Source of the DNA: Bradyrhizobium jicamae
Lineage (GTDB): Bacteria; Pseudomonadota; Alphaproteobacteria; Rhizobiales; Xanthobacteraceae
NCBI RefSeq assembly: GCF_001440395.1
Contig: NZ_LLXZ01000141.1
Coordinates: 3,495-67,494 of the forward strand
Reading direction: 5' to 3'
DNA: 64,000 bases
The notes under the pieces were generated by a model that was given only the letters and a program-made list of their open reading frames with translations, did no database searches and was not told the origin of the DNA. The translations under genes were made by a program, and so were the position numbers. Numbering within the stretch: position 1 is the stretch's first letter; every line of letters begins with the position of its first letter. This document shows, piece by piece, positions 6,747-10,737 of the stretch.

Positions 6747-7168
6747 GTCAGTCCCCAGAGTTCAGTCGGCAATCCCTGAACGATCGGGTTTGACAACAGC
6801 GACGGTTGCGACCGGCAAGACGTCAGATCGATGGGTTTTCCGCGACACTTTTCCCGCATGGCAATACCGGCGTTTAGCCGCCATCCGGTTCACCAGTCAG
6901 CGTAATCATCGAGAAGGAATGGGCCATTGAACGGAGGTTGATTCCAAACTTTCTTTTCGGTTGACCGGATCATACGGAGGTTTAGTCAGCCTGAGCCGCA
7001 TGCGACGGAAGATCGCGCGTCCGGAGGTGGGGAAGGCACGGGCGAACAGCCGATTTTACCGTTCGCACATTCGAAAAGCTGGTAACATCCAGCCAGTTAG
7101 GAGGGCGACGTTGTCGCCGCTGATGATTGCGAACAGCTAGCGACGCAGCGCCGCTCGGGGATGGCCGA

Positions 7169-8935
7169 GTGTCCGTGCTGATGATGCGTGAGCCGACGAT
7201 AAAGTCCTGGCGCTCGGCCGAGCAATGGCTGCTCGGCAGCATGGCGCTGGCGTTGGGAGTGGTAGCCGGTATCTGGCTGCTACTCGGTCCGACCCCGATG
7301 GCCGCTCCTCATTTCGCTGCTCTCGCGCTGCTGATCGCTGCGCTTGCCGCCTCGTTGATCCTGATGGGCCGGGTGGGCCGCACCCGGCGGCAGATGGAAG
7401 CCATGCTTCAGGGACGAATGAGCGCCGAAGCGCGCGCGACCGAGACGCTGCGCAACAGCGAGGCGCAATGGAAGGAGGTGTTCGAGCACAACCCGGTGAT
7501 GTACTTCATGGTCGATGCGACGGGGACCGTGCTGTCGGTCAACACGTTCGGCGCCGCACAGCTTGGCTACTCCGTCAGCGAATTGCTCGGAAAGTCCGTA
7601 CTGAGGGTCTTTCCTGCCGAAGAGCAGCGCGCCGCCCAGAGCAATGTCGCCGTATGCCTGGAGAACATCGGCCAACCCCACAATTGGGAGATCTGCAAGG
7701 TTCGCAAGGACGGTTCAGCGCTCTGGGTTCGTGAAAACGCCAAGGCCGTGCGGCGGCTGGACGGCCGGTTGATCGTGCTGATTGCGTGCGAGGACATCAC
7801 GGAACGCAAGCAGGCTGAAAATGCGCTGCGGCAGAGTGAAATGTATCTGGCCGAAGCCCAGCGATTGAGCCGCACCGGCAGCTTTGGCTGGCGCATCGCC
7901 AGCGGCGAAGTCATCTGGTCGGAAGAAACATTCAGAATGTTTGGCTACGACAAGGCCCCCTCCATCAAGCATGCCACCATCTTTCAGCGCGTTCATCCGG
8001 ATGATCGCGCGCGCGTGGAGCAGACCATCGACCGAGCGTCCCGGGACGGAAAGGACTTCGCGCACGGGTATCGATTGCTGATGCCCGACGGATCGGTCAA
8101 ACATGTCCACGCCACCGCACGCGCCGTAATGGGTGCGTCGGGCGAGGTGGAATTTGTCGGAGCGGTGACCGATGTCACCGCCCGCAAGCGAGCCGAGATG
8201 GAATTGCATGAAGCGCAGGCGACCCTCGCGCATGTCACGCGCGTGACGGCTCTCGGCGAACTTGCCGCATCGATCGCGCATGAGGTGAACCAGCCGCTCG
8301 CCGCCGTCGTCACCAATGCCGCGGCTTGCCGGCGCTGGCTCGACCGCAAACCTCCCGATCTGAAGGAAGCGCGCGGGACCCTGGAGTCGATCATCAAGGA
8401 CGGCAACCGGGCAGGCGAAGTGATCCAGCGCGTCCGCGCGCTGGTGAACAAGGCTCCCGATCAGAAAGCCGTCCTCAACATCAACGACGTCATCAACGAG
8501 GTCATCAGCCTGGTGCAGCACGAACTGCTGAACCACCGGATATCGTTGCGGCTGGAACTCTCCCCCGCTCTCCCCCTTGCCGTCGCCGATCGGGTCCAGC
8601 TGCAACAGGTCATACTGAACCTGGTTGTCAACGGCATCGAGGCAATGCAGCCGGTCATGGACCGACCGCGGGAACTGGTGATCCGGACATGCCAGGACGA
8701 TCTCGGGCAAATCATGGTAACGGTGAAGGATTGCGGCGTCGGGCTCGCCGCCGAAAATGCCGACCGGCTGTTCGACGCGTTCTTCACCACCAAATCCGGC
8801 GGCATGGGAATGGGCCTGTCGATCTGCCGCTCCATCGTCGGCGCTCACGGCGGACGGCTGTCCGCGTCTGGGAATAGCGGCCCTGGCGCGACATTCCACT
8901 TCACCCTGCCACTGGATCAGGAGGGTACGCCATGA
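7169..8935 (+). CDS. Membrane PAS-domain sensor histidine kinase
   Basis: Sensor kinase that phosphorylates the adjacent FixJ-like regulator. Taking the GTG at 7169 (GGGG 8 nt upstream) it has 588 residues; a TTG at 7127 and ATGs at 7181/7184 are alternatives. Two transmembrane helices lie near the N-terminus, then PAS domain 1 from about residue 97, PAS domain 2 from about 220 (PAS_3-like, GYRLLMPDGSVKH), a HisKA H-box with phospho-acceptor H371 in SIAHEVNQPL, and a HATPase with DCGVGL and GMGMGLSICRSI. No haem-ligand signature of true FixL was evident, so the input signal is unknown. It overlaps the next gene by 4 nt (ATGA). Confidence 0.9.
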   Translation: MSVLMMREPTIKSWRSAEQWLLGSMALALGVVAGIWLLLGPTPMAAPHFAALALLIAALAASLILMGRVGRTRRQMEAMLQGRMSAEARATETLRNSEAQWKEVFEHNPVMYFMVDATGTVLSVNTFGAAQLGYSVSELLGKSVLRVFPAEEQRAAQSNVAVCLENIGQPHNWEICKVRKDGSALWVRENAKAVRRLDGRLIVLIACEDITERKQAENALRQSEMYLAEAQRLSRTGSFGWRIASGEVIWSEETFRMFGYDKAPSIKHATIFQRVHPDDRARVEQTIDRASRDGKDFAHGYRLLMPDGSVKHVHATARAVMGASGEVEFVGAVTDVTARKRAEMELHEAQATLAHVTRVTALGELAASIAHEVNQPLAAVVTNAAACRRWLDRKPPDLKEARGTLESIIKDGNRAGEVIQRVRALVNKAPDQKAVLNINDVINEVISLVQHELLNHRISLRLELSPALPLAVADRVQLQQVILNLVVNGIEAMQPVMDRPRELVIRTCQDDLGQIMVTVKDCGVGLAAENADRLFDAFFTTKSGGMGMGLSICRSIVGAHGGRLSASGNSGPGATFHFTLPLDQEGTP

Positions 8936-9600
8936 CGGGGCGCCGGACATCGCCTTCCCTCGCAAGCGCCGAGGACCCGATCGTCTTTGTCGTCGACGAC
9001 GATTCGTCGGTGCGTGAGTCGCTGAGCAGTCTTTTCCGGTCAGTGGGGCTGCGCGTCGAGGCGTTCGGCTCGGCTCACGAGTTTCTGCAATGCAAGCTTC
9101 CTAATGTCCCCAGTTGCCTGATCCTCGACATCAGGCTCCCCCGCCTCAGCGGTCTCGACTTTCAGGCCGAACTCGCCAAGGCCGACATTCAAATTCCGGT
9201 CATCTTCATGACGGGTCATGGCGATATTCCTATGACGGTCCGCGCCATGAAGGCCGGGGCCGTCGATTTTCTGACCAAGCCGTTCCGCGATCAGGACATG
9301 CTGGATGCGGTGACCGCGGCAATCGAACGCGACCGCAACAGCCGCGATGAGGCCAAGGTTCTCTCGAACCTGCACGAGCTTTTCGCGACCCTCACTCCCC
9401 GGGAGCGGCAGGTGATGGCGCTCGTGACGACGGGGCTCATGAACAAGCAGATTGCAGCCGAAATAGGCCTGGCCGAGATCACGGTGAAGATCCATCGCGG
9501 ACACATCATGCGGAAAATGGGGGCGAAGTCGCTGCCGGACCTGGTGAGGATGGCCGAGCTGCTCGAGATCGGCCCCCCGTCCGGCCAGCCGCAAACCTAA
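8932..9600 (+). CDS. FixJ-like response regulator with LuxR-type HTH
   Basis: A 222-residue transcriptional regulator. The receiver carries the acidic pair D23-D24, phospho-acceptor D66 (LILDIRLP), the T in FMTGHGDIPM and the K in FLTKPF. The C-terminal GerE/LuxR helix-turn-helix reads LTPRERQVMALVTTG and NKQIAAEIG. Translation is coupled to the kinase by an ATGA overlap, so the two form a cognate pair. Targets are unknown; genes immediately downstream are candidates. FixJ itself (symbiotic or microaerobic control) is not implied. Confidence 0.92.
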   Translation: MTGRRTSPSLASAEDPIVFVVDDDSSVRESLSSLFRSVGLRVEAFGSAHEFLQCKLPNVPSCLILDIRLPRLSGLDFQAELAKADIQIPVIFMTGHGDIPMTVRAMKAGAVDFLTKPFRDQDMLDAVTAAIERDRNSRDEAKVLSNLHELFATLTPRERQVMALVTTGLMNKQIAAEIGLAEITVKIHRGHIMRKMGAKSLPDLVRMAELLEIGPPSGQPQT

Positions 9601-9693: not shown

Positions 9694-10080
9694 TTGTCCA
9701 ACCCGATCATATCAATCATCGACGATGACGGATCGGTTCGAGCCGCGACCCATAATCTTGTCCGGTCGCTCGGCTACGTCGTGAATACATTTGCGTCGGC
9801 CGAGGAATTCCTGCGATCGCCGTGCCTGAATGACACGTCATGCGTGATAACGGATATCAGAATGCCCGCCATGAGCGGGCTCGACCTGCAGGCTCATTTA
9901 CTCGCCACCGGGTACAGGTTTCCGTTCATCTTCGTCACGGCCTTCTCGGTCGAAAGCGACCGCGACCGCGCCATGAAGGCGGGCGCAACCTGTTTCTTGA
10001 GCAAGCCGTTCGATGGAGAAACGCTGATCAAGTGCCTCGAAGCCGCGCTGGCGTCAAACGGCCGGTCCGCAACCGGATAG
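9694..10080 (+). CDS. Stand-alone receiver (CheY-like) protein
   Basis: Single receiver domain of 128 residues with no output domain. A TTG start at 9694 is preferred: AAAGGA lies 6 nt upstream and the protein then begins MSNPIISIIDDD, as in FixJ-type receivers. Phospho-acceptor D54 (VITDIRMP) and K in FLSKPF are present; the usual switch Thr is T in FVTAF. It is 93 nt after the regulator on the same strand and may act as a phosphate sink or second target of the same kinase. A frame extension to 9622 lacks a ribosome site. Confidence 0.85.
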   Translation: MSNPIISIIDDDGSVRAATHNLVRSLGYVVNTFASAEEFLRSPCLNDTSCVITDIRMPAMSGLDLQAHLLATGYRFPFIFVTAFSVESDRDRAMKAGATCFLSKPFDGETLIKCLEAALASNGRSATG

Positions 10081-10169
10081 GCCCGGGTGCAAGCCCTTCA
10101 TACGTAAGGATGACCGCGCCAAACATCTAGACGAATTGAAGATAATCCACCGACGGCGCAAAACTCCGC

Positions 10170-10194: not shown

Positions 10195-10248
10195 ACAGCA
10201 TCACACATTTTAATTCGGCAAGTGGCAATTCCTCAGAAGGAGGTCGCC

Positions 10249-10413
10249 ATGCGTACAGAACCGCGTTGCACCGAATGTGACTGCGAGGACCCCAAGATCA
10301 TTGCTCTGCGAAATCCAGGACGCGAACGCTACTGCGGACGCTTCTGTCTCGACAAAGGTCACGAGAATTTCATTCGCTGGATCCGGCGTGCAAATGCGGA
10401 GGTCGCGTCATGA
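10249..10413 (+). CDS. Small Cys-rich protein, TRASH-like spacing (54 aa)
   Basis: A 54-residue soluble protein with C7-x2-C10-x-C12 and C29-x3-C33, followed by H38. C7 to C29 gives C-x21-C-x3-C, inside the spacing known for TRASH-type metal-binding knuckles (C-x19-22-C-x3-C). The ATG at 10249 is supported by a near-perfect AAGGAGG 5 nt upstream; an earlier GTG at 10222 lies before it. Its stop overlaps the next start by 4 nt (ATGA). Metal binding is inferred from spacing only; no characterised homologue was recognised. It begins 168 nt after the stand-alone receiver. Confidence 0.75.
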   Translation: MRTEPRCTECDCEDPKIIALRNPGRERYCGRFCLDKGHENFIRWIRRANAEVAS

Positions 10414-10607
10414 GTAATTGTTGCGGAAATCCGGAATGCAAGCGTCCCTTCGGACTGGTCCGGCGTAGCTGGTACTTCCAGCAGTTTTGCTCGACGAGTT
10501 GCCGCGACCTCTACAAGCGCCAACTGGAGCGTAACCGGACCTATTGGAAATGGCTCTACCAGGTGCCGGCAGTTGCGGGCCGCAGAGACTACTGCTCCAG
10601 CCGATAA
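10410..10607 (+). CDS. Small Cys-rich protein, FCS/TRASH-like zinc knuckle (65 aa)
   Basis: A 65-residue protein whose N-terminal half carries C4, C5, C10 and then FC27-S-T-S-C31-RDLY. C5 to C27 gives C-x21-C-x3-C, the same spacing as in the upstream protein, and the FCSxxC core is that of TRASH/MYM-like metal knuckles. The C-terminal half is basic and aromatic (RTYWKWLY). Translation is coupled to the upstream gene through an ATGA overlap. The two proteins may be diverged duplicates or partners; neither has a recognised function. Confidence 0.72.
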   Translation: MSNCCGNPECKRPFGLVRRSWYFQQFCSTSCRDLYKRQLERNRTYWKWLYQVPAVAGRRDYCSSR

Positions 10608-10620
10608 GCGCGGAGGAACC

Positions 10621-10737
10621 ATGTTGGCGACGGTAAATGCGATGCTGATCGGCGCGCTGCTGGCATGGGGACCCCTGCTGGTCGTGTTCATCTATATCTT
10701 GCGGGACATGCGAAACGCTCGCCCTGACCGCGATTGA
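10621..10737 (+). CDS. 38-residue single-pass membrane peptide
   Basis: ATG at 10621 follows GGAGG closely and lies 13 nt after the previous stop. The product has an N-terminal hydrophobic helix (LIGALLAWGPLLVVFIYIL) and a short charged tail (RDMRNARPDRD), which predicts an inner-membrane peptide with its C-terminus in the cytosol. It is below common gene-calling limits. Position and ribosome site make it the third gene of the Cys-rich micro-operon, perhaps a membrane anchor or partner. The function is unknown. Confidence 0.6.
   Translation: MLATVNAMLIGALLAWGPLLVVFIYILRDMRNARPDRD

Follow-up and report, generated by a model that had tools for sequence, protein, structure and literature searches.

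What do three very small genes, at the edge of what annotation pipelines record, do in Bradyrhizobium jicamae, and with which partners do they work? The genes, here called A, B and C, lie in a window by which we mean the whole 64,000-nucleotide stretch analysed, part of a genome of 8.73 Mb. They were found exactly as the original prediction had described them: A and B, of 54 and 65 codons, overlap by the four nucleotides ATGA, A follows a Shine–Dalgarno-type AAGGAGG (10237–10243), and C, of 38 codons, starts 13 nt past the end of B behind a GGAGG of its own (Table 1). All but one of 38 loci preserve the ATGA overlap, and the start codons, ribosome sites and reading frames of all three genes persist across relatives; the B of a named B. 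lablabi record is 94% identical to that of the window. Nei–Gojobori comparisons of the window with 12 relatives gave dN/dS values of 0.07–0.34 for A, 0.09–0.47 for B (first 55 codons) and 0.06–0.59 for C (30 codons). We conclude that all three are genuine genes, conserved in relatives and for the most part subject to purifying selection. As a gene, C is the weakest case of the three because the spacing between B and C ranges from −13 to 199 nt and because it is apparently frameshifted in one genome (L116) and stopped early in another (L121), with A and B intact in both. Its membrane helix was read from the sequence rather than called by a transmembrane predictor.

Table 1. Coordinates of the module genes and candidate control elements in the window, and loci of the divergent B2 arrangement
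Feature	Coordinates	Strand	Description
Two-part box upstream of HK	6926–6985	+	TTGAACGGAGGTTGA (6927–6941), 29 nt, CATACGGAGGTTTA (6971–6984)
HK, membrane-anchored PAS-PAS histidine kinase	7181–8935	+	About 584 aa; PAS, HisKA, HATPase_c
RR, FixJ/NarL-type response regulator	8932–9600	+	222 aa; Response_reg and GerE
SDRR, single-domain receiver	9694–10080	+	128 aa, TTG start
Element upstream of A	10099–10139	+	CATACGTAAGGATGA (10099–10113), CAAACATCTAGACGAATTGA (10120–10139)
Gene A	10249–10413	+	54-aa protein, knuckle C7-x2-C10-x18-C29-x3-C33
Gene B	10410–10607	+	65-aa treble-clef-like protein, C5-x4-C10-x16-C27-x3-C31, predicted helix 29–49
Gene C	10621–10737	+	38-aa peptide, one hydrophobic helix, GALLAWxP...RD core
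Divergent B2 loci			L147–L153, L155, L157, L160, L161, L163, L165, L167, L168, L170

The small genes form the tail of six co-directional genes, HK-RR-SDRR-A-B-C, that are conserved as a unit. The kinase, whose start was picked from conservation and whose membrane segments were read by eye, has an N-terminal hydrophobic region and a core nearest to FixL-derived PDB chains. The RR scores 208.7 bits against the FixJ equivalog model, the cut-off of which is 255. The SDRR has D54 at the phospho-acceptor position, and its C50, C100 and C114 are invariant in all 49 aligned receivers (38 from the module and 11 linked to B2, a second finger family described below), a possible redox or metal site judging from the alignment. 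Two of these three cysteines are absent from the neighbouring RR, which has a cysteine at the place of C50.

To what extent the small genes belong to this unit can be read from the synteny of 39 stretches (L058–L096), each with a match to A or B: HK, RR, SDRR, A and B occur together in 37 of them, and C was found in 36 of these 37 module loci. The locus L077 has its kinase match on the opposite strand, a weak B and no C that could be found, and the two stretches outside the count are one whose B-like gene sits roughly 1.2 kb away from the end of its contig (L078) and one with a spurious A match (L091). The window has GlnD upstream of the module and Ogt and LivJ downstream, and the module is kept without these flanks in eight loci (L073–L077, L084, L088 and L089), so that the gene order is maintained in changed surroundings. 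The search of the genus, which covered 265 Bradyrhizobium genomes, gave B matches in 78, of which 61 scored at least 71 bits. The RR orthologue is present in each of the 61 genomes with a strong B: it scores at least 346 bits in 60 and 333 in the remaining one (G355). The best RR in a genome without a strong B reached 340 bits (G402). The co-occurrence of B and RR is complete, and the score gap is narrow. One draft genome (G410) has B and RR on different contigs. The link to the response regulators just upstream, offered originally as a possibility, is borne out by this co-occurrence as well as by the gene order, and the membership of A, B and C in a six-gene module is well supported.

The proteins themselves had been described as single knuckles of three cysteines, C7/C29/C33 in A and C5/C27/C31 in B, with identical C-x21-C-x3-C spacing. 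The spacing holds, but the count of three does not: a fourth cysteine, C10 in both proteins, is conserved as well, which makes the full patterns C-x2-C-x18-C-x3-C for A and C-x4-C-x16-C-x3-C for B. The four cysteines of A are invariant in alignments of 24 and 26 rows, both of them chosen subsets. Counted without gaps in 43 of the 45 distinct A proteins, C7 and C10 are present in 43/43 and C29 and C33 in 42/43, the lone exception being a row that a one-residue deletion puts out of register; the extra C12 of the window protein is variable, with serine in 34 of the 43 rows. Among 28 rows of B, C10, C27 and C31 are invariant and C5 is kept in at least 90%, and one B (L134) carries C-x2-C in place of the C5 arrangement. 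Such an arrangement is that of a four-cysteine zinc site, and from the pattern we would expect both A and B to bind zinc.

The TRASH domain has three cysteines in a C-x19-22-C-x3-C arrangement, into which the C-x21-C-x3-C spacing of A and B falls, with the fourth conserved cysteine in addition. A TRASH-type assignment had been suggested from this spacing; in the HMM search no TRASH, YHS or FCS model reached its cut-off for the window proteins. Window B scores 18.7 bits against zf-FCS (gathering cut-off 22.4) and 13.8 bits against DUF2116, a probable treble clef (26.8). DUF2116 gives weak matches in all 28 B members (best E 0.0012), zf-FCS in 2/28 (E 0.0015), YHS in 1/28 (0.061), ribosomal L24e in 2/28 (best 0.037) and VATC in 1/28; all Pfam matches of B, treble-clef families among them, lie below cut-off. 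B therefore resembles the TRASH, zf-FCS, DUF2116 and YHS treble-clef families of Pfam in its knuckle followed by a helix, and its weak matches fall there. Unlike these families, the window proteins, which stay below every cut-off, have four conserved cysteines, and A matches none of them. A of the window has no match in Pfam, NCBIfam or PHROGs, and its 26 relatives give chance-level profile matches only (best E 0.032). The best PHROGs match of B, at E 0.0054, is to a family without known function. Compared with each other as profiles, A and B give a probability of 3.4%, which leaves a common origin of the two unsupported.

Predicted structures add little to this. The AlphaFold model of B has a pLDDT of 67.7, with the helix 29–49 at about 85, and that of A a pLDDT of 61.5. 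Fold searches with the modest-confidence B model gave nothing significant, the top match being 9ci7_B (Tox4) at a Foldseek E of 0.33 and a VIA Z of 4.0; the MYND, ZMYM5 TRASH and YacG folds came at E 4.7–9.8 only. YacG-type proteins are small zinc proteins with four cysteines, and they share with A and B the small size and with A the C-x2-C...C-x3-C layout, but the sequence and fold match is not significant (PDB 1lv3 at E 9.8).

A further family of fingers came from the weak end of the genus search. B2 is a distinct small protein with a C-x2-C...C-x3-C knuckle and an FGLIRYYSWRT-like centre, and its source set was all 17 weak B matches among the 265 genomes. Fifteen of these loci encode B2 (L164 and L169 do not), and at 12 of the 17 the gene lies upstream of, and divergent from, a paralogous triplet of HK, FixJ-type regulator and receiver; the three true B2 loci without a full triplet are L156, L162 and L166. 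A profile search added six more, three linked to a triplet (L151, L153 and L155) and three unlinked (L154, L158 and L159). B2 is linked also at L170, a locus of G402 that had been picked for its RR, and B2 is missing from L171 of G357, where an RR and a receiver are present. In a tree built from 63 RR sequences, all 37 from the module fall on one side of a branch with support 96/93, and 14 of the 15 B2-linked RRs group with the RR of plasmid p184_1 and that of L171 (94/89, not starred). Thirteen plasmid records with B2-like matches have no annotated feature under the match in the collection's gene table, which is incomplete. The window's own genome has a B2-like copy as well (L158; contig C131, about 8541–8675), with a stop inside the matched stretch and, as read by eye, transposase-like and Crp-like frames as neighbours.

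Two conserved elements could place these genes under the control of the regulator. The first is the two-part box upstream of the kinase: regular expressions matched the 5' half in 27 and the 3' half in 29 of the 36 module-kinase upstream regions, a tally in which the window's own incomplete row counts as a miss. An alignment of 16 intergenic regions between B2 and the kinase shows the same two-part layout, CTCAATTGTACGGAGGTAA...CTATACCTAGGTTTG. Written as ATACSNAGGTTTR, the 3' half occurs 5 times in the window's genome against 0 for the reversed control; in 14 chosen relatives, of which 11 carry the module and 3 carry B2, the counts are 52 and 4, respectively. Flanks were read for 35 of 57 sites: a loose pattern for the 5' half matched 29 of the 35 sites and 257 of 14,000 random windows, and a stricter one 27 of the 35 and 37 of 14,000, both patterns having been composed after the sites were seen and several sites being one site in related genomes, counted repeatedly. 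The kinase promoters that had defined the box account for 10 of the 29, and 19 of the 25 other sites carry the 5' half.

The second element lies upstream of A. Across 38 loci, both of its blocks have a mean majority fraction of 0.89, whereas the spacer and the sequence on either side reach 0.55–0.72; comparable conservation upstream of A (0.85–0.89) is confined to the ribosome site and the 15 bases that precede it. Searched as a 14-mer, the first block has a single match in the genome, the same number as its reversed control, and a relaxed form of the element gives 10 matches within the window at three mismatches where 7.6 are expected, which is not above chance. The A-type pattern is found upstream of A in 33/38 loci, upstream of HK in 1/36 and in the B2/kinase intergenic regions in 1/16, whereas the HK-type pattern occurs in 0/38 and 29/36 of the upstream regions of A and HK, respectively. 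Because the two patterns do not swap places, control of A-B-C by the RR is something that we infer.

The box recurs beside nodulation genes. One copy in the window's genome lies between nodA and a LysR gene that we read as nodD-like; NodA, NodB, NodC, NodS and NodU beside this box reach their family cut-offs, and the LysR gene has no match at cut-off in NCBIfam. Another copy lies 412 bp upstream of the gene for GDP-mannose 4,6-dehydratase (gmd), presumably noeL-like to judge from its context. The nodulation-locus boxes are on contig C113 (L178:5740–5812 and L177:5870–5930), and the remaining ones are in the module kinase promoter and on contigs C166 and C140, the last without a 5' half. Outside this genome, G336 has a box that precedes a NodD-like gene by 284 bp (L208), and plasmid p184_1 has one upstream of an 890-aa PAS kinase, after which come an RR and a single-domain receiver. 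Within the window's genome the module RR is the only close member of its type, the next RR being 53% identical.

These positions touch on a question from the literature. According to the relevant section of a review, nodD1, nolK, noeL and noeI of B. japonicum USDA 110 are induced by flavonoid and NodW without a nod or tts box, NwsB can restore their NodW-dependent induction, and the joint action of NodW and NodD1 at nod boxes still awaits clarification (PMC5793154). A passage of another paper gives ATC-N9-GAT as the nod-box signature and, contrary to the review, reports that nodD1 is preceded by a nod box as well as by a sequence resembling one (PMC5596368). Homologues of two of the genes reported as NodW-dependent, nodD1 and noeL, share the two-part box with the module kinase promoter in the window's genome; the dependence itself is known from USDA 110 (PMC5793154, in the section cited), and nod-box-like ATC-N9-GAT repeats stand between box and gene at both nodulation sites here, a difference from the NodVW account. 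NodW dependence at these sites may therefore act through the nod-box-like repeats rather than the box.

The triplet resembles known symbiotic relays in its layout too. As described in the part of PMC4070871 that treats nodVW, a second nodW copy adjoins the first in four soybean strains and similar chromosomal sets, including nwsAB, exist; NodV/NodW and NwsA/NwsB share with the module a PAS kinase, a following FixJ/NarL-type RR and a further receiver gene adjacent. The second nodW copy of that paper we would liken to the single-domain receiver here, and the p184_1 triplet likewise has a receiver next to its RR. The nodulation-locus boxes, the adjacent receiver and the sole close RR together lead us to read the triplet as putatively NodVW/NwsAB-like and the box as a candidate site for a NodW-family regulator. 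The module kinase differs in having two PAS domains and 584 aa, against 890 aa and four PAS_3 stretches in the p184_1 stand-in, and A, B and C are absent from the NodVW/NwsAB descriptions in the relevant parts of PMC5793154 and PMC4070871. No paper linking small cysteine proteins to NodVW was found in the open literature.

FixL/FixJ/FixT offers a second comparison. FixT is a single-domain receiver that inhibits FixL (PMC7078487, as far as the passage on FixT goes), and the module shares with this system a FixL-like kinase core, a FixJ-like RR and conserved cysteines, so that the SDRR could serve as a feedback inhibitor. The Caulobacter FixT carries a C53/C56/C59/C64 motif, unlike the SDRR with C50, C100 and C114 only, and for this reason we do not class the SDRR as an Fe–S FixT; FixT proteins from outside Caulobacter also lack the motif, according to the same passage (PMC7078487). 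A counterpart of A, B or C is absent from its description of the system.

From these likenesses we propose that A-B-C is an accessory arm of a NodV/NodW (NwsA/NwsB)-like phosphorelay that feeds back on the relay, a mechanism to which, as a whole, we give a probability of about one half. The kinase would signal to the FixJ-type RR, which would autoregulate the kinase operon through the box at 6926–6985 and drive A-B-C from the element at 10099–10139. A and B are each predicted to hold a single zinc ion in a fold of the treble-clef or zinc-knuckle kind. As small adaptors for feedback, or as anti-kinases, they would attach to the kinase, the RR or the receiver and might, by analogy, restrain the relay in the way FixT restrains FixL; C would sit in the membrane beside the kinase and modulate it. 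A further possibility, in this nod-bearing strain without another close RR of the type, is that the relay acts at the nodD-like and gmd (noeL-like) genes too. That A, B and C tune the sensor/response-regulator system, which is akin to the one that turns on nodulation genes, is probable; the NodVW kinship of the relay and the biochemical role of the three proteins are putative.

The main rival to this proposal is nucleic-acid binding by A or B. Both would then be outputs of the relay under RR control rather than its regulators, and they would act as small treble-clef binders of the L24e, HNH or FCS kind on DNA, RNA or the ribosome. The weak L24e matches of B would fit, as would its E values of 0.11–0.34 against L24e, RLP24 and eL24 chains in the PDB, the basic character of its helix, and the position of Tox4 (9ci7_B) at the head of the sequence matches of A (E 0.07) and of the fold matches of B. 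Yet every one of these matches is below threshold, and an unrelated viral envelope chain did better for B (E 0.078) than L24e. The tight pairing with kinase triplets, in two different arrangements, suits a relay partner at least equally well, and we regard nucleic-acid binding as unlikely, though the most probable of the alternatives.

A TRASH-like module for metal handling or redox was the function originally put forward; A and B would in that case sense or chaperone metal, and C would be a membrane anchor. The conserved cysteines and their C-x21-C-x3-C spacing agree with it, the best weak matches of B are to treble-clef families that include zf-FCS and YHS, and single loci have neighbours that look, by eye, NicO-like (L088), UreG-like (L073) or RND-efflux-like (L075). 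The conserved cysteines are, however, four rather than three, as in structural zinc sites, the window proteins reach no cut-off and the best match of A is at E 0.03. Since no profile reaches threshold and no metal gene is kept with the module across different contexts, we set this reading aside; it has little support and seems quite improbable. Least probable of all, and very much so, is that the small genes travel as unrelated riders on the RR transcript and owe their conservation to that of the region. The variable spacing of C and its apparent breakage in two genomes would be expected of a rider, but the order of A and B and their overlap are kept in 37/38 loci while the flanks change, and B-like fingers recur beside paralogous triplets on the opposite strand.

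The proposed accessory arm can be extended into a single broader claim: that A, B and B2 are a standing third component of bradyrhizobial NodVW/NwsAB-type relays, that the box is the site of a NodW/NwsB-type regulator at nodD1 and noeL, and that the chromosomal module replaces NodVW in such strains, so that nodulation signalling would be gated by zinc-finger microproteins and a membrane peptide. Taken jointly, these statements are speculative, and we doubt that all of them will hold. If they did, a missing cis element and missing protein parts would be added to symbiotic signalling, and small genes below annotation limits could be core parts of two-component systems. A candidate box common to a chromosomal NodVW-like relay, a nodA/nodD-like locus and a noeL-like gene is a concrete and testable proposal. 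It bears on the question of NodW and NodD1 at nod promoters that the review leaves open in the section cited (PMC5793154). What is new here is the tie between easily missed microproteins and a symbiosis-type relay.

Some observations concern other parts of the locus. Over 111 nt, the leader of HK folds no better than shuffled sequences (z −0.36); at 7112–7141 it has a conserved GGAGG and the palindrome GGCGACGTTGTCGCC, and it contains a mini-frame that starts TTG TCG CCG CTG ATG and ends with TAG after nine codons. As the mini-frame persists in relatives, a leader peptide is possible. The box on C166 (L180, about 6017, minus strand) has strongly similar copies in five relatives (L198, L203, L206, L207 and L209), and in this genome and the five relatives no frame of at least 60 codons starts within 900 nt downstream of it.

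Beyond the genus, searches with A and B gave few matches. Across the family, B was found in 18 of 296 genomes from five genera, several of them weak, and A in 12 of 296, also from five genera and two weak; L015 and other loci seem to encode B-like fingers in other genera. The order search returned A in 4/249 genomes, one weak, and B or B2 in 8/297, all in each case from the same genus, and the class search B in 2/289, the second being a short match with a stop. A plasmid search with A and B gave no match. Among viral contigs, 39 stretches were matched, one of which encodes a B-like finger (L145:5001–5081, IMGVR_UViG_3300021057_000019).
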